Shown here piece by piece: positions 3,839-56,254 of a stretch of 64,000 bases of DNA (position 1 is the first letter of the stretch; every line of letters starts with the position of its first letter). The DNA is from Aliarcobacter vitoriensis (GTDB lineage Bacteria; Campylobacterota; Campylobacteria; Campylobacterales; Arcobacteraceae), in NCBI RefSeq assembly GCF_003316695.1, contig NZ_PDKB01000002.1:62001-126000 (forward strand), given 5' to 3'. Made by a program: the position numbers and the translations under genes. The notes under the pieces are model-generated. The model did not search any database. It had not been told where the DNA came from and worked only from the letters and a program-made list of their open reading frames with translations.

Positions 3839-5911
3839 ATGTCATTTGATATTTCTAAATATAGAGAAATGTTTTTAGAGGAAGCTACAGAGCTTTTCGA
3901 ATCAGCAGATAATGTGTTATTAGAAGCTGAGAATAACGGGACGCTAACAGATGATGAAATGGGACAACTTTTCCGAGATGTTCATACATTAAAGGGTAGT
4001 GGAGCTTCTGTTGAGTTATCATATTTCGCAGAGTTTACTCATGATGTAGAAAATTTGATGGATAAACTTAGAAGTCATAAGATAGAGTATATTCCAGAAA
4101 TGGCAGAAACTCTTATTGATGGGCTAGATGTTATGAAAGAAATTTTGGATCTTGAAGTTTCAGAACAAATAAACAGAGAAAAATTTACTGAAATGACTAG
4201 TTCTTTATTAGAAGAAATTAGAGCTTATTCAAATGGTGCTAAAGTTGTTAGAATTGAACCTGTTTTAGAAACTAAACAAGCAAAAATAGTTCAATCTCAA
4301 TCAAAAACTGAAGAATTAAGTTCTCAAAAAGAGAGCTTTGGATTTTTTAGTGATGAATTAAATATTCAAAGAGATAGAACAGATAAACCTTTTGGTATTT
4401 TTATTGATGATGATGTAGATGATAAAAATTTTGGTTTTTATGATGATGATTTAGAAATAAAATCTAATTCTATTGATGATGATAAATTCAAAATCGACGA
4501 AAGTAAAGATAATTTTGGTTTCTTTGATGATATGCCAAAAATAACACCTAATTCAGTAATGAAATCGAATGATATTGAAGAAAATAGGGTTCAAGAGGAG
4601 AAAGTTGTTTCTGAAAATGATGATTCAACGACTCAAATCACACAATCAAGAAGAGTAAAAAACAGTGATGATGAGTCTAAAAAATCTATATCAAACAATA
4701 ATAATAGTATTAGAGTAAACTTAGATAAAATCGATTTACTAATGACTAATGTAGGTGATTTAGTTATAACAAATGCTATGCTTACTCAATTTTCATCAAC
4801 AATAGAAGATACAAAAACTAGGGGTCCTGTTTTAGAAAGATTAGAACTTCTTGAAAGACATATTAGGGATATGCAAGATAGTATTATGAGTATTAGAATG
4901 GTTCCTATGGATTCAATTTACTCTAAATTTCCTAAAGTTGTAAGAGATATATCAAAAAAACTTAATAAAAAAGTGGAATTTAAACACTATGGTGATAATG
5001 TTGAAATTGATAAAGCCATGATTGAGGGATTAACAGACCCATTAATGCATATTATCAGAAATTCTTTAGACCATGGAATAGAAATGCCAGAAGATAGAAT
5101 AAAATCTGGTAAAAATGATACAGGAACTATTAGTATTTCTGCTGAGCAAGCAAATGGTCAGATGATTATTACTATTGAAGATGATGGAAAAGGTATTGAT
5201 AGTGAAAAAGTAGCTCAAAAAGCACTAGAAAAAGGGCAAATTGATGAAAATCAATATAGTACAATGTCACATAATGAAAAAGCACTTTTAGTATTTGGAG
5301 CTGGAGTTTCAACAGCAGACCAAATTACAGATATTTCTGGTCGTGGTGTAGGAATGGATGTTGTAAAAACAAATATTCATAAACTAGGCGGAATTATAAA
5401 ATTAGATACTGAAATAGGAAGAGGTACTGTAATTACAATTATGCTTCCATTAACTCTTGCAATTTTAGATGGGCTCGATATTAGAGTAGGTGAACAAAAA
5501 TATATTTTACCACTTAGTTCTATTGTGGAATCTTTACAACCAACAGCTGATATGATTAAAAAAATTGGTGATGGAACACAAGATTTATTAATGTTAAGAG
5601 AAGAATTTATTCCTGTTGTTAAACTTCATCAGTTATTTGGATTACAAAAAAGCTTTGAAAAACTTGAAGATGGTATGCTGATTGTTGTAAAATCAGGTAA
5701 TACTAAAGTTGCATTATCTATCGATGAATTTTTAAATCAGCATCAAGTAGTTGTAAAACCTCTTGATAAAAACTTTAGAAGTGTTCAAGGAATTGGTGCA
5801 GCAACAGTACGAGGAGATGGAAGTATAGGATTAATTCTTGATGTTGTAGGAATTATTGATGCTCAAATTAAAATAGAAAGAGATATGAATTCTGTAAGAA
5901 AGGCATCTTAA
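3839..5911 (+). CDS. cheA: Chemotaxis histidine kinase CheA
   Basis: A 690-residue CheA. An N-terminal Hpt domain carries H49 in DVHTLKGSG. A long acidic linker (about 135-285) replaces a recognisable P2 domain and holds four FGFF-like motifs (residues 167, 185, 198, 226). The dimerisation helices follow (about 290-355), then the ATPase domain with N box (RNSLDHGIE), G1 box (DDGKGID) and G2 box (GRGVGMDVV). A C-terminal CheW-like domain from about 545 docks receptors. The protein ends at MNSVRKAS, so the receiver domain fused to CheA in many Campylobacterota is absent. It lies between cheY and cheR in one operon. Confidence 0.95.
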   Translation: MSFDISKYREMFLEEATELFESADNVLLEAENNGTLTDDEMGQLFRDVHTLKGSGASVELSYFAEFTHDVENLMDKLRSHKIEYIPEMAETLIDGLDVMKEILDLEVSEQINREKFTEMTSSLLEEIRAYSNGAKVVRIEPVLETKQAKIVQSQSKTEELSSQKESFGFFSDELNIQRDRTDKPFGIFIDDDVDDKNFGFYDDDLEIKSNSIDDDKFKIDESKDNFGFFDDMPKITPNSVMKSNDIEENRVQEEKVVSENDDSTTQITQSRRVKNSDDESKKSISNNNNSIRVNLDKIDLLMTNVGDLVITNAMLTQFSSTIEDTKTRGPVLERLELLERHIRDMQDSIMSIRMVPMDSIYSKFPKVVRDISKKLNKKVEFKHYGDNVEIDKAMIEGLTDPLMHIIRNSLDHGIEMPEDRIKSGKNDTGTISISAEQANGQMIITIEDDGKGIDSEKVAQKALEKGQIDENQYSTMSHNEKALLVFGAGVSTADQITDISGRGVGMDVVKTNIHKLGGIIKLDTEIGRGTVITIMLPLTLAILDGLDIRVGEQKYILPLSSIVESLQPTADMIKKIGDGTQDLLMLREEFIPVVKLHQLFGLQKSFEKLEDGMLIVVKSGNTKVALSIDEFLNQHQVVVKPLDKNFRSVQGIGAATVRGDGSIGLILDVVGIIDAQIKIERDMNSVRKAS
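4337..4549 (+). repeat. Four degenerate FGFF-D-D repeats in the CheA linker
   Basis: Four imperfect copies of an aromatic-acidic motif occur at residues 167 (FGFFSDELNI), 185 (FGIFIDDDVD), 198 (FGFYDDDLEI) and 226 (FGFFDDMPKI). They lie in a Ser/Asp/Glu/Asn-rich, presumably disordered linker where P2 (the CheY/CheB docking domain) would be expected. The pattern looks like repeated short linear binding motifs. Confidence 0.7.
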
Positions 5912-48754: not shown

Positions 48755-51145
48755 TTAGAACTCCATTTTCATAGAAAATGCAACAGCTCTTGGATCACCT
48801 AATTGTTGAATATTAGTCCAATAAACTTTATCTGCTAAGTTTTGTGCAGTTATATTAAAAGTAGTTGGATATTTATCTAATTTTGTTTTATATCTAATCC
48901 CTGCATCATATAAAGTATAAGATGGAATAATATCTGTATTTACACTATCACCATATTTTTCGCCAGTATAATATGCTCCAGCATTTATAGATAAACCATT
49001 GATATATGGAATATTATACTCTGCAAAAAGTTTTGCCATTTTAGTAGCTACATTTGTTGGTTTTTTACCTTCTAATGCAGGGTTTGTAGCTTTTTCAACA
49101 CTTAAATCCATAAATGTTACCCCACCAAATAATGTTAAATCATCAGTTACTTTTCCAGTTACTGTAAGTTCAATTCCTTGATGTAATTGTTCTCCATCTT
49201 GTGTTAAAGTTGGTTTTGGTGTCGTATTAACTTCATATTGATTTGCTTTTTCTATTCTAAATAAAGCAGCAGTTAATAAAGCTTTTTCATCAAATATACT
49301 ATATTTTGTTCCAACTTCGTATTGTTTACTTACATAAGGGTCTAATATCTCATTTGCATTTTGAAATCTAGTTCCTACTATTGTTCCAGCTTCTAAACTC
49401 TCTATATAAGTTACATAAGTTGTTAAATCTTCAAATGGTTTATAAATAAGTGAAAGAGTAGGCGTAAGTTCAGATACATCATATTTTGAACTTTGTACAC
49501 CATTACTATTATAGCTTGTATTTATGATAGTTGCATAATTTGCTCCAACCAAAGCACTCCATTGGTCATTGAAAACTATATCATCACCAATTAATATATT
49601 TTGATATTGAATTCTTGAATTAATTTTTCTTGGTTGAGTTCCTACTGTACCATCCCAAAGAGAGCTATCAGGTTCAGGAAAGTTTTTTAAATCATTTAAA
49701 GATATATCATTAATAAAATCATAACTTGCACGCCAATCAGCAGGAGTAAAGCTCTTATATGAACTAAGTGTATATCCAGTTGATAAAGTATGACTTACAC
49801 TTCCTGTATCAAACTTTGAATCTAAATATATATTTGCACCATTATTTTCAGCCTTATACCAAGGTTGTCTTGATAACCAAGACGGATAGTTTCCTGTTCC
49901 ATTATCTCCAACTATATAACCATTTTGTACAAACAGACCAGTATCATCCCCTCTACTTCTCATTTCTTCATAAAATAGATTTGTTCTTAAAGTAAAAATG
50001 TCATTTATATCCCATATTACACTATTTTCTATTTTATTTGATTTTATCTCTTCTTCCATCCAATCTGGACTATAACTTTTATTTTTTTTGATACTTGCTC
50101 TATCAAAACCACCTGATGATGGTTGAAATAAAATACCTCCAGCTTTTGTAAAACTATCTCTATGTGAATATTTTATATCTGTATAAAAATTATCTGTTGG
50201 TTTCCAATCAAATACTAAACTAACGGCTTTTTGTTCTTTATTAGTTTCATTTGGGAGTTCACCATCTTGATAAAAAGCATTTAACCTATATCCAAAAGTA
50301 TTGTCTTGATTAAACTGTCCACTTAAGTCAATATGTCCATAATATGATTCATTTCCATAACTTCCAATTGTAACATTTCTTAAGTCTTCTGTTGTTGGTT
50401 TTTTAGTTATATAATTAACTGCTCCACCAACTCTTCCTCCACCATATAAAAATCCTGTTGCTCCACTTATGATTTCCACTCTTTCTATATCTTGCATCAT
50501 AGGTGCACTTGTCATTCCTCTTGAGTATGAAATCCCATTTACTATTGGATTTTGTACTTCAAATCCTCTCATAGTAGTTCTAGGACTATCTACTCCAAAA
50601 TTTGCTTTTCCTGTTTCTTGAGTTGTTGGATTCATCTTAAAAACTTGTTGCATATCTTTTGCTTGTACATTTTCAATTAAGTCTTTTGAGATGATGCTCA
50701 TTGAGTATGGAGTGTCTTGTAGTTTTCTATCATTCCAAATACCTACTCCCTTTGTTTCTTCTACAAGGTAGCCTGATTCTGCACTTCCACTTCTACCAGT
50801 ATTTACAGAAACATCATCTAATATATATGTTCCATTTATAACTTTTACAGAACCTTGTATAGGAATTATCAAGATTGTATCATTTTCAATAGTTGCTTCA
50901 AGTCCACTATTCTTTAAAATCTCATTTAAAGCATTTTGTACACCCTCAATATTTTTTATATTTGGTGCTTTTTTACCATCTAGTAGCTTTCCATCTACCA
51001 TATATGGCATATTTGATTTTTTACTTATCTCTTCTATCGCATCTTTTAGTGATAGATTTGAAACTGAAAATTGCTCTGCATTTAGGCTTGTAGTTAATAA
51101 TAAAGCCAATGTTGGAGCGATAATCGCTGATTTAAACTTTGTCAT
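48755..51145 (-). CDS. TonB-dependent siderophore receptor with STN signalling domain
   Basis: About 796 residues from ATG 51145, preceded by AGGAGAAAAA; an upstream in-frame ATG at 51301 would add residues with no signal peptide. The signal peptide is FKSAIIAPTLALLLTTSLNA. An STN domain (about 25-75, SLKDAIEEISKKSNMPYMVD), a plug (about 140-260, with GGAVNYITKKPT) and a 22-strand barrel ending in Phe follow. This is the FecA/FhuE class. The STN domain contacts a FecR antisigma factor, encoded with FecI at 54840-56254. The substrate cannot be read; ferric siderophore or citrate are plausible. The receptor is split from fecIR by inserted modules. Confidence 0.93.
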   Translation of the reverse strand: MTKFKSAIIAPTLALLLTTSLNAEQFSVSNLSLKDAIEEISKKSNMPYMVDGKLLDGKKAPNIKNIEGVQNALNEILKNSGLEATIENDTILIIPIQGSVKVINGTYILDDVSVNTGRSGSAESGYLVEETKGVGIWNDRKLQDTPYSMSIISKDLIENVQAKDMQQVFKMNPTTQETGKANFGVDSPRTTMRGFEVQNPIVNGISYSRGMTSAPMMQDIERVEIISGATGFLYGGGRVGGAVNYITKKPTTEDLRNVTIGSYGNESYYGHIDLSGQFNQDNTFGYRLNAFYQDGELPNETNKEQKAVSLVFDWKPTDNFYTDIKYSHRDSFTKAGGILFQPSSGGFDRASIKKNKSYSPDWMEEEIKSNKIENSVIWDINDIFTLRTNLFYEEMRSRGDDTGLFVQNGYIVGDNGTGNYPSWLSRQPWYKAENNGANIYLDSKFDTGSVSHTLSTGYTLSSYKSFTPADWRASYDFINDISLNDLKNFPEPDSSLWDGTVGTQPRKINSRIQYQNILIGDDIVFNDQWSALVGANYATIINTSYNSNGVQSSKYDVSELTPTLSLIYKPFEDLTTYVTYIESLEAGTIVGTRFQNANEILDPYVSKQYEVGTKYSIFDEKALLTAALFRIEKANQYEVNTTPKPTLTQDGEQLHQGIELTVTGKVTDDLTLFGGVTFMDLSVEKATNPALEGKKPTNVATKMAKLFAEYNIPYINGLSINAGAYYTGEKYGDSVNTDIIPSYTLYDAGIRYKTKLDKYPTTFNITAQNLADKVYWTNIQQLGDPRAVAFSMKMEF

Positions 51146-51231
51146 TTTTTCTCCTATTATAGTATAAGAACAACTATTAAAATTGTTTCTTTCAATAATA
51201 AGACGTTTGAGATTAAAAAAACATACACTTT

Positions 51232-51292
51232 TTTTGAAGAAATTTTGAAATTTGTAAAAATTTGTAGGAAAATGATGATTTTTTGCGTGTTT
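51232..51292. repeat. Direct repeat, copy 1, flanking the AbiEii-like module
   Basis: TTTTGAAGAAATTTTGAAAT... to ...ATTTTTTGCGTGTTT. It matches 52544-52594 at 49 of 51 positions and has an extra 10-bp tandem unit (AAAATTTGTA). It lies just upstream of the receptor promoter region. A symmetric AAAATGATGATTTT inside both copies could be a Fur-like site. Confidence 0.8.
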
Positions 51293-51354: not shown

Positions 51355-51762
51355 ATGGAAGTAAAAAATACAATATTTGAGTTATTACTAACAAAAAGTA
51401 ATTTTAAGAAAAAAGATTTTGCAGAATACTCTAAGATACCATACGATACTGTTGTTGGTTGGAAAAAAAAAGATAAAGTTCCAGCTTATGCTATGGTTAT
51501 TTTAAAAGATATGATATATAGAAAAAAAGTTGATGATGACCTAATAGAAAATTTAAATAGAAATCACATCTCTATAAATAATTATAATTTGACTAAATAT
51601 GAAGAAAAAAGACTTAGTTCAGCTTTTTGGGGAACTAATCTAACTATTGATGAAATTATAAAACAAATAAAAGAAAAAAACCAAAAAATTTTAAAAAAAG
51701 TTGAAGAAAATCTTCCAAAGGATCTAATAAAACAAATTTTAGGAAAAATAAATTATGCATAG
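51355..51762 (+). CDS. HTH protein, probable antitoxin of the AbiEii-like toxin
   Basis: 135 residues. The N-terminal part has a helix-turn-helix (FAEYSKIPYDTVVGWKKKDKVPAYA, roughly 20-47); the rest is charged and helical. The ATG follows AGGAG. It overlaps the nucleotidyltransferase-like gene by 8 nt, the order antitoxin then toxin. It is not a recognisable AbiEi winged-helix protein, so partner status rests on coupling. Confidence 0.7.
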   Translation: MEVKNTIFELLLTKSNFKKKDFAEYSKIPYDTVVGWKKKDKVPAYAMVILKDMIYRKKVDDDLIENLNRNHISINNYNLTKYEEKRLSSAFWGTNLTIDEIIKQIKEKNQKILKKVEENLPKDLIKQILGKINYA

Positions 51763-52534
51763 AGATGATTGGAAAAGTGTTTTTTTAAATCAAGATAAGA
51801 TTCTAAAAGTATTAAAGCCACTTGAAAATGTGATGTTTCTAGCTGGAGGTACTGGTTTACAAAGATTTGTTTTAAAAGAAGCCTATAGACACTCTGAAGA
51901 TTTAGATTTCTTTTTTGAAAAAGTAAAATTAGAATATGAAAGATGGATAAAAGATGAAAAAGCTTGGAGATTGTTTTTTAGCTTTAAAGATAATGATGAG
52001 ATTATTAAACTTGAACTTTTAAATTTCACTTGCAAAAGAATAAAAGATTTATCATTTATAAATCAAAATATTTTTAAAACTGAAAATTTATACAACCTTC
52101 TTCTATATAAAATAAAAGCTTTGTGTGATAGACCAGATACTATAAAAGACCTTTTTGATATATATTTTATTTTAAGAGAATTTGGAAACATTCAAATAGA
52201 TACTTTAATAAAAGATGTAAATCTAAAATTCAAAGAAGCAATAGGAATAAATTATTCAAAAGAAAATCTTATAAATTCGCTAAATCAAAATCTAAAATGG
52301 GATATAGAAATTGGAGACAATATAAAATATATTTACGGATTAAAACAAGAAATAGATTTATTTCAAGAAGAACTAAAAAAAGCTTTTATTCAAAGTAAAA
52401 ATATTGATTTTTCATATAAAACAAGATTTACAAATAAATCTTTAGATTTTGGGCTTAATATAGGTGAATATATAAATCTTATTGAAGATAATCAGTTTTT
52501 AGTTGAAGAGTGGAATAAATATTTTGATATTTAA
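51755..52534 (+). CDS. AbiEii-like nucleotidyltransferase toxin
   Basis: 259 residues. MFLAGGTGLQRF followed by HSEDLDFFF (about residues 28-55) is the GG-T...[R/H]-x-SxDLDF motif of AbiEii/AbiGii nucleotidyltransferases. Further C-terminal, NLLLYKIKALCDRPDTIKDLFDIYFI fits the conserved K and D helices. AbiEii-type toxins transfer nucleotides (tRNA is a target in the related MenT proteins) and can abort phage infection. The pair is oriented opposite to the fec genes and flanked by 51-bp direct repeats. Confidence 0.82.
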   Translation: MHRDDWKSVFLNQDKILKVLKPLENVMFLAGGTGLQRFVLKEAYRHSEDLDFFFEKVKLEYERWIKDEKAWRLFFSFKDNDEIIKLELLNFTCKRIKDLSFINQNIFKTENLYNLLLYKIKALCDRPDTIKDLFDIYFILREFGNIQIDTLIKDVNLKFKEAIGINYSKENLINSLNQNLKWDIEIGDNIKYIYGLKQEIDLFQEELKKAFIQSKNIDFSYKTRFTNKSLDFGLNIGEYINLIEDNQFLVEEWNKYFDI

Positions 52535-52543
52535 GAAGTTCTA

Positions 52544-52594
52544 TTTTGAAGAAATTTTGAAATTTGTAGGAAAATGATGATTTTTTGAGTATTT
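52544..52594. repeat. Direct repeat, copy 2, flanking the AbiEii-like module
   Basis: 51 bp, 49 of them shared with 51232-51292. It begins 10 bases after the toxin stop. After it comes AAGGAGAAGATT, faintly like the sequence before the antitoxin ATG. Confidence 0.8.
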
Positions 52595-52627
52595 TTAAGG
52601 AGAAGATTCTTTATACCATTGAATTTA

Positions 52628-52912
52628 TTAAGCTAAGACTTGCATTTTTACACCAAAAGAGTCTAGCACTTTTTTTATAGTTTCAAATTTAGGTTTTGTA
52701 CCTTTTTGAAATGTTTTATATAAACTCTCTCTACCTAGTCCAGTATCTTTTGCTAATTGGCTCATACCTTTTGCTTTAGCAATATTTCCTAAAGCTTCTA
52801 ATAACTCATCTGTACTTCCATCACTTAATATTTGAGATAAATACTCTGCTATTACTTCTTTATCATCAAGATATTGTGCTATATCAAAATTTGTAATTTC
52901 TAGTTTACTCAT
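52628..52912 (-). CDS. HigA-like addiction-module antitoxin
   Basis: 94 residues. LLEALGNIAKAKGMSQLAKDTGLGRESLYKTF with GTKPKFETIKKVLDSFGVKMQV is the COG3636-type HigA/XRE antidote pattern. The helix-turn-helix is at about 55-75. The gene overlaps the toxin remnant at 52905 in the usual toxin-first order. As its toxin has lost its 5' end, this is an orphan antitoxin that may still repress or protect. Confidence 0.85.
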   Translation of the reverse strand: MSKLEITNFDIAQYLDDKEVIAEYLSQILSDGSTDELLEALGNIAKAKGMSQLAKDTGLGRESLYKTFQKGTKPKFETIKKVLDSFGVKMQVLA

Positions 52913-53081
52913 TATCTAGCTCCTTTAAAATTTCATTTGCTTTTTTTATATCATCACTTTGTGTTGATTTATCTCCACCAATTAATAAAACAATAATCTC
53001 TTCATCTTTTTTAGTATAGTAAACTCTATAAGCTGTACTTGTTGTAATTCTTAGTTCAGATATATTATTACCTACAGAATG
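52905..53081 (-). pseudogene. HigB/RelE-type toxin, 3' remnant
   Basis: A 58-codon open segment reads ISELRITTSTAYRVYYTKK, VLLIGGDKST and DIKKANEILKEL, the C-terminal half of RelE/HigB-type addiction killers. An in-frame TGA lies just upstream (53082-53084), there is no start codon and the usual N-terminal ~45 residues are missing. The truncation ends within 11 bases of the fecR remnant at 53092, pointing to a recombination junction. Confidence 0.8.
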
Positions 53082-53091
53082 TCAATTAAAT

Positions 53092-53153
53092 ATCATTTCT
53101 TAAAAAACTTAAAACTATTATCTTTTTTATCTACTTTTATAGAGTATATTTTT
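53092..53153 (-). pseudogene. fecR 3'-end remnant (duplicate of 54839-54900)
   Basis: 62 bp match the end of fecR at 59 of 62 positions, with an intact stop. It encodes KIYSIKVDKK followed by a slightly different tail (DNSFKFFKK against ENIFKFSKK in the intact gene). It stops at a sharp boundary both sides. The ATPase gene at 53178-54647 sits between this copy and the intact fecR. Confidence 0.85.
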
Positions 53154-53177
53154 CGATTTTATATCTTGTACTAGAAA

Positions 53178-54647
53178 TTAGCTATTAAGAAGCTCTGATA
53201 ATTTAATATCACTTGTTATATTTAAACTGTTGTAATGACTATTTCTTTCACAACAATAACTTGATAACATAACCAGTTTAATATCATACTTACCTTTTAA
53301 TCCATATTTTTTAAACATTTCTAATTTGTGTAGTAGTTTATCTTTGTAATCTTTTATTATTTGAAACTCTTTATTATAGAACTTGCACTCAACTATATCA
53401 TATACATTATTATCATATTCAACAATAAAATCTATTTGAGCTCCACTATCTTCATCATTGCCTATAAAATTCCAATAACCATAACTTTTTGCAAATCCTT
53501 TAGTCTTTCTTGCTTCTAAGTATAAATCTATATTTGCAACACATAATACTTCAAATGCAAATCCACTCCAAATAGAATATTTTTGAGAATCCATTACAGT
53601 ATTAAAATAAGGCTTTTGTAGAGAGATTAATTCATTTTTACTATATTCACTAACCCACTTATTATAAAAAAGTACAAATGGATCACATATGATGTATTTT
53701 GTATTAATTTTTGAATTAAGTTTGCTTAATCCTTTTATAAAACCTGCCTCACAAAGCTCTTCTATTGCATCTTTAATAACTGAACCACTTTTTTGCCCAA
53801 GTTCATTGGCTAATTCAGTTTGAGTAAGTCCACTTTGTTTAGAACATAATATTTTGATAATTGATGAATAAAACGATGCTTTCATATCAAAAAGAGATTT
53901 TAAAACATCTACATACTCTTTATTTAAATGTCCATCTATATTGAATATTAAATCATCTATATTTTGGGAAATTGTTTTAGAACTATCGAGAAAACTCAAA
54001 TATTTAGCAACTCCACCAAATACCATATAAGTTTCAGCTATTGTTTTATCATCTATATTAAACTTACAAACATCTAACAAGTATTCTTTAGTTTCTTTTA
54101 AATCAAATGGCTTGAGAGGGATTTTTTCATCTAATCTTTGATAAAGTGGTCCACTACTATCTTCAAATATTTTATTTTTTATCCATGATGAATTAGATCC
54201 ACAAAGAATTAGAATAATATTCTTATGATTAAGTGCAAACTCATTCCAAAAATATCCAAGTGCTCCAATGAATCCAGAATTATTTTTTTTATCTATCCAA
54301 GGTACTTCATCCAAGAAAATTACAACTTTTTGATTCTCTTTTTGATATTGAGTAATTGCATATTTTAAATAGTTGAATCCATCCATCCAATTATTAATCT
54401 CTTTTTTTGATTCTATTTTAAACCAGTCATATATTGATTCAGTAAAGTTTCCAAGTTGTGTTGAACTGTCTAGCATATATGAGCCAGTAAATCTAAAGAA
54501 AATGCACTCTTTTTTATGCTCACTAAACATATTATTGATTAGATAAGTTTTTCCTATTCTTCGTCTTCCATATACTGCAATAAGTTTACTTTCATTTTGT
54601 TCACATGCTTTTGTTAAAATTTCAATCTCTTTTTTTCGACCAATCAT
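53178..54647 (-). CDS. ATP-binding protein with DUF234-type PD-(D/E)xK C terminus
   Basis: 489 residues. The N-terminal AAA/STAND-like ATPase has IGRKKEIE, Walker A VYGRRRIGKTYL (about 25-36), Walker B KVVIFLDEVPW (about 108-118) and a sensor-like LILCGSNSSW. A winged helix (about 270-310) follows and a C-terminal DUF234 domain has GYWNFIG, GAQIDFIVE and DIVECKF, the Asp...Glu-x-Lys nuclease-like motif (about 400-430). This archaeal-type family is common in accessory DNA. Its function is not established. It sits between two fecR 3' ends. Confidence 0.85.
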   Translation of the reverse strand: MIGRKKEIEILTKACEQNESKLIAVYGRRRIGKTYLINNMFSEHKKECIFFRFTGSYMLDSSTQLGNFTESIYDWFKIESKKEINNWMDGFNYLKYAITQYQKENQKVVIFLDEVPWIDKKNNSGFIGALGYFWNEFALNHKNIILILCGSNSSWIKNKIFEDSSGPLYQRLDEKIPLKPFDLKETKEYLLDVCKFNIDDKTIAETYMVFGGVAKYLSFLDSSKTISQNIDDLIFNIDGHLNKEYVDVLKSLFDMKASFYSSIIKILCSKQSGLTQTELANELGQKSGSVIKDAIEELCEAGFIKGLSKLNSKINTKYIICDPFVLFYNKWVSEYSKNELISLQKPYFNTVMDSQKYSIWSGFAFEVLCVANIDLYLEARKTKGFAKSYGYWNFIGNDEDSGAQIDFIVEYDNNVYDIVECKFYNKEFQIIKDYKDKLLHKLEMFKKYGLKGKYDIKLVMLSSYCCERNSHYNSLNITSDIKLSELLNS

Positions 54648-54838
54648 TTAATGCCTTTTATATTATTAGTTTTCGTAAAATACTTATTTTTATAAAATAA
54701 AAACATAATTATATATAAAATTTCGTGAGATATCAACATATACGATATATTTATATTTAATTTAAATATAATTTCGGAAATCTAAAGAATTTATACAATT
54801 TTTACTTAAAATTAGTTATTCCATTAAATAGCAAATTA
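54648..54838. promoter_or_regulatory. AT-rich intergenic region with a 19-bp palindrome
   Basis: This 191-bp gap between fecR and the ATPase gene presumably holds the ATPase promoter. TATATTTAA-T-TTAAATATA at 54752-54770 is a perfect palindrome, and two TTTCG boxes (54721 and 54772) flank it. A regulatory role is a guess; the palindrome is pure AT and could arise by chance. Confidence 0.35.
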
Positions 54839-54839
54839 A

Positions 54840-55778
54840 TCATTTCTTAGAAAACTTAAAAATATTCTCTTTTTTATCTACTTTTATAGAGTATATTTTT
54901 GGTAAAGATACTAAAAATTTATCAAAATCATTTATAGCAAATTTACCAGTTATTTGTGTTTTAGCAACTCTTTCATCTTGAAATTCTATTTTTAAATCTT
55001 TGTATCTTGAAAACTCCGCTAAACTATCCTTTAGAGTTGTTTTATTAAACACTAAAAAACCATTTTCCCAACTTGCTATATTTTCAACTTCTACTTTTTC
55101 AAAATCCATTTTTTTATCTTCATTTATCCCAATTTTATCACCTTGATTTAAATAAGTATATTTTCTGTTAGAAGTAACTTTTACAGTTCCTTCTTTTACT
55201 TTTACACTAAAACTATTGTTGATATTTGATACTTCAAAAGTTGTCCCAACAACTTCAATTTCTGCATCTTTTGTTTTTATGATAAATGGTTTTTCTTTAT
55301 CCTTTGCAACATAAAAAATTGCTCTACCATCTACAAAATCTATCTTTCTACTACTTTTATAATAATCTACATTTAGATTTGAATTTACATCTAAAACTAT
55401 TTTAGAATCATCAGGAAGAGTTATAGTATTTTGTAATTCTTGAGCTGAAACAAAATTTTGAGAATATACTGGAACAAAATAATAATCTGCTCCAAAGCCA
55501 ATACAGAGAAAAACTGAAGCGGCAATCATAAACTTTTTTGTTCTTTGAATAAATTTTGTTCTTTTTGCTCCTTTATTCGCATTTTTTACTAATTTTTCTA
55601 TTGTATTATTTGATAGTTTTGAAAATCTTTGTCTTAAAAGTTTATTTGTATTGTAAGCTTTTTTATGTGAAGAATTTGACTCTAACCAATGTTTTAATTG
55701 TTCTTCTTCATTTTGAGTTAATCCTTCTTTTTCTTTTATAAGCCAAGATACAGCTTGTTCATCAACACTTTTCATCAA
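54840..55778 (-). CDS. fecR: FecR-type transmembrane anti-sigma/signal transducer
   Basis: 312 residues. An N-terminal cytosolic segment DEQAVSWLIKEKEGLTQNEEEQLKHWLESN (DUF4880-like) binds the sigma factor. One membrane helix (about 80-105, FMIAASVFLCIGFGADYYF) follows, then the periplasmic FecR domain with ITLPDDSKIVLDVNSNL (about 115-135) and a C-terminal STN-binding region. It relays ligand binding by the receptor to FecI. Its ATG overlaps the fecI stop by 4 nt. A near-identical copy of its last 20 codons lies at 53092-53153. Confidence 0.92.
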   Translation of the reverse strand: MMKSVDEQAVSWLIKEKEGLTQNEEEQLKHWLESNSSHKKAYNTNKLLRQRFSKLSNNTIEKLVKNANKGAKRTKFIQRTKKFMIAASVFLCIGFGADYYFVPVYSQNFVSAQELQNTITLPDDSKIVLDVNSNLNVDYYKSSRKIDFVDGRAIFYVAKDKEKPFIIKTKDAEIEVVGTTFEVSNINNSFSVKVKEGTVKVTSNRKYTYLNQGDKIGINEDKKMDFEKVEVENIASWENGFLVFNKTTLKDSLAEFSRYKDLKIEFQDERVAKTQITGKFAINDFDKFLVSLPKIYSIKVDKKENIFKFSKK

Positions 55779-56254
55779 TTATATCCTTCAATACTTTCTA
55801 GCTTTTCTTTGATTCTTTCAGTTGCTCTAATAATATGTTTTTCAACTGCAGGGACACTTATTCCCATTCTTTTAGCTATTTCTTTTCTGCTTAATCCTTC
55901 ATACAAATGTAAAATAAAAGCTTGTGCATTATTTGGAGGGATAGTTTCTAAAATTTGAGCTAACAACTCTTGTTCACACTCTTCAAAAAGTATCTCTTCT
56001 GGTTGCTCTGATATAGGAATACTAGAATATTCTTCTTCATATTCAATCGAAGCTGAATGTTTTTCTCTTCTTGCTAAATCAAAAACGATATTTCTTGCTA
56101 ATTTGTATAAAAAGGCTCTTTGATTTTCTATTGGAATATCTAAATTTGCATCTAATAATCTACTATAAGACTCTTGTACTATATCCTTGGCTTTTTCTTT
56201 ATCTCCTACCATCTTTTGAACATAATATACCAATTCTTGATAATATTGTACCAT
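55775..56254 (-). CDS. fecI: FecI-like ECF sigma factor
   Basis: 159 residues. Sigma region 2 reads VQKMVGDKEKAKDIVQESYSRLLD, and YKLARNIVFDLARR; region 4 has LSRKEIAKRMGISVPAVEKHI, the helix-turn-helix for -35 recognition. It should direct transcription of the TonB receptor gene once released by FecR. The receptor lies 5 kb downstream on the same strand, now separated by other genes. A CATAATT-GG-AATTATG palindrome lies upstream at 56294. Confidence 0.93.
   Translation of the reverse strand: MVQYYQELVYYVQKMVGDKEKAKDIVQESYSRLLDANLDIPIENQRAFLYKLARNIVFDLARREKHSASIEYEEEYSSIPISEQPEEILFEECEQELLAQILETIPPNNAQAFILHLYEGLSRKEIAKRMGISVPAVEKHIIRATERIKEKLESIEGYN

Follow-up and report, generated by a model that had tools for sequence, protein, structure and literature searches.

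A candidate phage-defence gene and an AbiE operon, each between direct repeats, in a fecR-receptor spacer of Aliarcobacter vitoriensis: probable insertion with target duplication

The stretch of Aliarcobacter vitoriensis DNA analysed here (64,000 nucleotides, hereafter the window) contains a fecI-fecR gene pair and, further along the same strand, a gene for a TonB-dependent receptor. The spacer between fecR and the receptor gene is occupied by an ATPase gene, a remnant of the 3' end of fecR, a truncated toxin gene followed by its antitoxin gene, and an AbiE operon on the opposite strand (Table 1). Two starts are available for fecR, a TTG at 55778 (the ORF as listed) and an ATG at 55775, and the ATG of the receptor gene at 51145 was set by comparison with the genomes G022 and G007. 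A conserved promoter-like element stands intact upstream of the receptor gene, and the same element (AAAAGTGTMTG...TCAAACGTC) is also found upstream of receptors in the loci L039 and L042; it is a candidate FecI-dependent promoter. Across the whole genome, receptors related to that of the window account for about 20 TonB-dependent receptor matches, some of them fragments at contig ends, which is more than in any other genome of the genus examined.

Table 1. Features of the fecI-receptor region, with positions in the window.
Feature	Position	Strand	Evidence
fecI, ECF sigma factor	55775..56254	-	Pfam Sigma70_r4_2, 2e-13
fecR; its 3' end is one of the repeat copies	54840..55778	-	Pfam FecR, 4.7e-19; FecR_C
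fecR-end repeat, copy 1, within the complete fecR	54839..54900	-	
AT-rich non-coding 191 nt, promoter side of the insert, upstream of the ATPase	54648..54838	-	sequence
ATPase with predicted C-terminal PD-(D/E)XK-type nuclease, candidate defence protein PDC-S27	53178..54647	-	PADLOC PDLC04984
24 nt between the ATPase stop codon and repeat copy 2	53154..53177	-	sequence
fecR-end repeat, copy 2: fecR 3'-end remnant (last 18 codons and stop; gene incomplete)	53092..53153	-	
HI1419-type (HigB/RelE) toxin remnant, 5'-truncated, abutting the fecR remnant	52905..53082	-	TIGR02683
HI1420-type antitoxin (HigA)	52628..52912	-	TIGR02684, 2.3e-32
Copy of the receptor-upstream region, distal copy of the second direct repeat	52544..52594	-	
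AbiEii nucleotidyltransferase	51755..52534	+	Pfam PF08843, 9.8e-11
Partner ORF in the AbiEi position, without family match	51355..51762	+	operon position
Original receptor-upstream region, proximal copy of the second direct repeat	51232..51292	-	
Promoter-like element AAAAGTGTATG ... TCAAACGTC, conserved and intact, upstream of the receptor gene	51202..51232	-	
TonB-dependent receptor with STN domain, fecA-like	48755..51145	-	Pfam Plug, STN, TonB_dep_Rec

The 3' end of fecR and its remnant form a direct repeat of 62 nt, identical at 59 positions (95%; BLAST E about 2e-23) and with a start-to-start distance of 1747 nt, and the ATPase is the only ORF between the two copies. The edge of the remnant is sharp, since it begins with GAAAAATATACTC directly after unrelated sequence and ends with the fecR stop codon plus one base; this arrangement, an ATPase gene between two sharply bounded fecR ends, is what the original prediction had described. 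In a gapped alignment the similarity continues for about 12 nt past the stop codon by way of a 9-nt indel, and the duplication may accordingly have covered about 75 nt. The three differences between the copies (E>D, I>S and S>F) all change an amino acid. They had been taken as a sign that the remnant came from a diverged fecR and not from a fresh copy of the present one, but they fit drift in a dead copy equally well, and the outgroups are split on which of the copies is ancestral.

Within this genome, strong matches to the repeat are confined to these two places, and the possibility that it is a multi-copy element was rejected, as was the same possibility for the repeat found in genome G337 (see below), because each has two strong copies per genome. 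The ends of the other fecR genes are 80-82% identical to it over 56-59 nt. Recombination between two fec loci, one of the origins put forward before, is disfavoured because the paralogue ends are only this much alike. An old tandem duplication of fecR, in which the ATPase afterwards came to lie between the copies and the second fecR lost its body, would be in keeping with the seven fecR loci of this genome; nevertheless, the remnant is far closer to the resident fecR than to the paralogue ends, relatives have a single fecR at the locus and the repeat boundaries are sharp and short, so that this origin is regarded as very improbable. Direct repeats of this quality are unusual: at a length of at least 30 nt and an identity of at least 90%, the window contains two pairs, both of them in the fecR-receptor spacer, and a comparison of 241 kb of loci under a single threshold gave as other pairs only the bracket around the ATPase of G337 and one pair of long diverged paralogues.

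The ATPase ORF is intact and encodes 489 amino acids. Its best-supported Pfam family is ATPase_2 (PF01637, 1.8e-18), AAA_14 also being matched, whereas the DUF234 label given to it originally does not hold, as no DUF234 family appears among the Pfam matches at 1e-3. The PADLOC profile of PDC-S27 (PDLC04984) matches residues 1-487, that is to say the full length, at 2.3e-139, and on this basis the protein is a candidate single-gene phage-defence protein of the PDC-S27 type. PDC-S27 has been described as an ATPase fused to a domain of the PD-(D/E)XK superfamily, and for most PDCs experimental validation is pending (PMC12988326). The GRRRIGKT loop and a QID...ECK motif are invariant across nine aligned relatives. 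The AlphaFold model has a mean pLDDT of 51.5, and its C-terminal half is too weak to assess the predicted nuclease domain.

Within the genus the gene turned up only in its own genome, with no match in the 30 others that were examined. In another family, however, relatives 81% identical are present in G169 and G357, and metagenome-assembled genomes contain relatives at 80% (Sulfurimonas crateris) and 77% (Sulfurospirillum). Horizontal acquisition is the simplest reading of a gene that is missing from 30 genomes of its genus and 77-81% identical in genomes of Sulfurimonas and Sulfurospirillum type. The best plasmid relative is 63% identical and lies on a plasmid of Malaciobacter mytili, where no strong repeat bracket was detected around it, and no relative was found in the viral contigs searched. 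Between G169 and G357 the gene is shared as part of a longer unit, which is 91% identical and takes in 146 nt before the gene and 24 nt after it. The segment after the ATPase stop codon is also 24 nt long in the window, where it ends at the repeat, and homology between the window and other PDC-S27 units reaches only a few tens of nucleotides upstream of the ATG. Two copies of PDC-S27 occur in genome G518 (L133 and L134), with a Fic-like gene near both, and one of them is broken by a frameshift or stop.

The second repeat pair of the spacer, which the original prediction had missed, brackets the AbiE operon, which in turn adjoins the region of the ATPase insert. Its copies are near-identical apart from a 10-nt indel: a 10-nt tandem unit is present in the proximal copy, which abuts the promoter-like element of the receptor gene, and absent from the distal one. 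The toxin gene between the two bracketed segments matches its family profile from position 42 to position 94 of 95 only and its 5' end is cut next to the end of the fecR remnant, while the antitoxin gene beside it is apparently complete. The segment from 52544 to 53153 starts and ends with diverged copies of exactly both borders of the spacer, as would be the case if it were the whole spacer allele of another strain (fecR' end, truncated toxin gene, antitoxin gene and receptor-upstream' copy) joined by transformation between an allele bearing the ATPase and one bearing AbiE. Such a concatenation requires several recombination events, no strain with such an allele occurs among the genomes compared, and it is judged unlikely.

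Loci in which the receptor gene follows fecI-fecR without interruption are found in G022, G007 and G003, with spacers of 139, 165 and 185 nt, respectively, and a single fecR end each. G022 also shares the upstream gene order of the window (mtaB and ftsH-like, hydrolase-like and moaB-like genes), the receptor of G003 is only 32% identical to that of the window, and G006 and G001 have other genes after fecR. The empty site is thus read from other species, with one genome per species and fecR identities of 59-73%. These alleles, together with the distribution of the ATPase in the genus, support the part of the earlier interpretation in which the ATPase entered the fecR 3' end secondarily. A constant, ancient arrangement of fecR, ATPase and receptor, which had been named as the outcome that would speak against it, was not seen in the compared genomes. 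Besides, the fecR-receptor gap of the window (3694 nt) can be resolved into the 1747-nt period of the ATPase repeat, a 1302-nt period of the AbiE repeat, a 497-nt HigBA segment and 148 nt, and this residue is close to the presumed ancestral spacer, given the 139-185 nt of the relatives. The ATPase had been held to explain why fecIR lies 3.7 kb from its receptor; it accounts for about half of that distance, and AbiE and HigBA cover nearly all the rest.

The history that best brings these data together, with a probability of roughly 0.7, would begin with an ancestral locus composed of fecI-fecR, a spacer of about 150 nt and the receptor gene. The spacer would have gained a toxin-antitoxin segment, represented today by the truncated toxin gene and the complete antitoxin gene. 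A PDC-S27 cassette, measuring about 1.7 kb when its promoter side and the roughly 24 nt that follow the stop codon are counted, would have entered the 3' end of fecR, and a separate AbiE cassette would have entered a site just upstream of the receptor promoter. The two insertions would be independent. In each, some 50-75 nt of resident sequence at the target would have been duplicated, and as a consequence of this duplication fecR would keep a complete 3' end and the receptor gene its promoter. We infer that the repeats arose at insertion, as duplications of the target, and that later drift gave the 3/62 differences. Staggered breaks followed by repair, a recombinase acting in trans or a single crossover with a circle may have made the joints. 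The fecR end is encoded by each copy, so recombination of one with the other would delete the ATPase and leave fecR as an intact ORF again. Support for this history comes from the repeats, the empty alleles elsewhere, the distribution of the ATPase, the sum of the gap and the recurrence of brackets at PDC-S27 genes and, more weakly, at AbiE operons.

Recurrence was assessed by looking for direct repeats that span the gene in 37 PDC-S27-type rows, with a cut-off of 45 bits; G279 is represented twice, and in L061 and L063 a neighbouring ORF was picked automatically, but no strong repeat was present when these two loci were examined around the ATPase itself. Four rows exceeded the cut-off: G337 (52 nt, 100%), G357 (88 nt, 92%), G402 (54 nt, 85%) and G053 (229 nt, 88%). 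With the window and the loci added later, 5 of about 40 PDC-S27 loci are bracketed against 0 of 37 FecR/TonB-receptor control loci, a difference that is marginal (one-sided Fisher p about 0.04) and whose threshold and control set were chosen within the same analysis. The other loci, about 35 of the 40, have no detectable flanking repeat. The bracketing repeats are unrelated to each other and not all of one kind. The G402 repeat corresponds to the 3' end of pseG, a gene which is uninterrupted in G558, and a remnant of the old tail lies beyond the ATPase. The repeat of G337 lies downstream of a nifE-like gene and occurs twice in the genome; in the search for an empty site, its relatives were seen to keep the nifE-like gene, the non-coding flank not being conserved. 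The repeats of G053 are the 5' ends of two related nucleotidyltransferase genes and could be an ordinary gene duplication. Those of G357 are tRNA-Asn 3' ends, which points to a classical integrative element there; in its locus L065, these scars (2043-2129 and 4157-4244) flank the PDC-S27 gene, and no tRNA gene was found in the 10-kb contig. In the case of AbiE, a type IV toxin-antitoxin system, the AbiEii of the window has relatives in one other locus only, where there is no repeat, and none of the 30 loci of the AbiE comparison set passed the strict repeat cut-off. Nevertheless, weak, short and decayed repeats hug the operon in two AbiE loci, with a geometry similar to that of the window, in one case where a livF-like gene ends and in the other where an HNH-nuclease-like gene starts (names given on inspection of the translated sequences and not by profile search).

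Several of these loci bear on the proposal, already made in the original prediction, that circular DNA recombined at the fecR end. According to it, a circle carrying a fecR 3' end and the ATPase would have recombined once with the resident fecR end, either through homologous recombination or with the help of a site-specific recombinase in trans. The order repeat-ATPase-repeat, its two sides differing slightly in their tails, fits this proposal, although it is equally expected from a long target duplication. The complete pseG of G402 continues past the repeat into an unusual tail, and it is the far remnant that looks like the tail of G558; an insert that brought the tail with it would be expected to give this pattern. 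The 3' ends of tRNA genes are the usual target of tyrosine-integrase elements, and, apart from the tRNA-Asn repeats of G357, the ATPase of G169 is located beside a tRNA-Asn, together with an integrase-like gene and AbiE genes. On the other hand, neither an integrase nor any other recombinase is present in the insert of the window, and the plasmids and viral contigs searched yielded no circle and no donor in which the fecR end is arranged in this way. Integration of a circle at the fecR end is considered possible but doubtful. A bolder proposal is that PDC-S27 ATPase-nucleases move themselves, as single-gene selfish elements which would open gene ends and leave duplications of about 50-90 nt with no canonical transposase or integrase; it is no more than a speculative suggestion, with little probability.

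If insertion with target duplication is the correct reading, the locus would be relevant to the open question of how small defence and toxin-antitoxin genes move in genomes with no recognisable mobile element. Scars of this kind have been known so far mainly around restriction-modification genes, and here two of them, around other defence-type genes, share one spacer. Defence cassettes can thus accumulate in the spacer between a regulator and its receptor while the full end of fecR and the receptor promoter are retained. As PDC-S27 genes show similar brackets elsewhere, the mechanism could be tested with strain collections of Arcobacteraceae.

Some integrative elements use the 3' ends of genes or tRNAs as attachment sites. 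The ATPase insert of the window may be compared with them: its short direct repeats leave the target gene, fecR, with a complete 3' end, and a relative of its PDC-S27 gene lies between tRNA-Asn 3' scars in G357; unlike a tyrosine-integrase element, the insert has no integrase and consists of a single gene between the repeats. With the PDC-S27 family the ATPase shares a full-length profile match and a single-gene layout, and it would also share the predicted PD-(D/E)XK-type domain. The closest parallel is insertion with long target duplication, which, in the literature found, is described from comparison of Helicobacter pylori strains for restriction-modification genes as an inserted unit between long direct target repeats of variable length, of the order of 100 bp (Nobusato et al. 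2000 and Furuta et al. 2010, as cited in PMC1643837, PMC3031569 and PMC3874152). In the window, likewise, a defence-type unit lacking transposase, integrase or IS is absent from relatives and lies between target-derived repeats of tens to about 100 nt, namely 62 nt (up to about 75 with the indel) of the fecR end on both sides, and Helicobacter belongs to the same phylum. The uninterrupted alleles of G022, G007 and G003 come from other species and not from other strains, the repeats have drifted to 95% identity, and the cargo is PDC-S27 and AbiE instead of a restriction-modification complex. Given this cargo, the locus is assigned to the same pattern of insertion and not to restriction-modification insertion as such.
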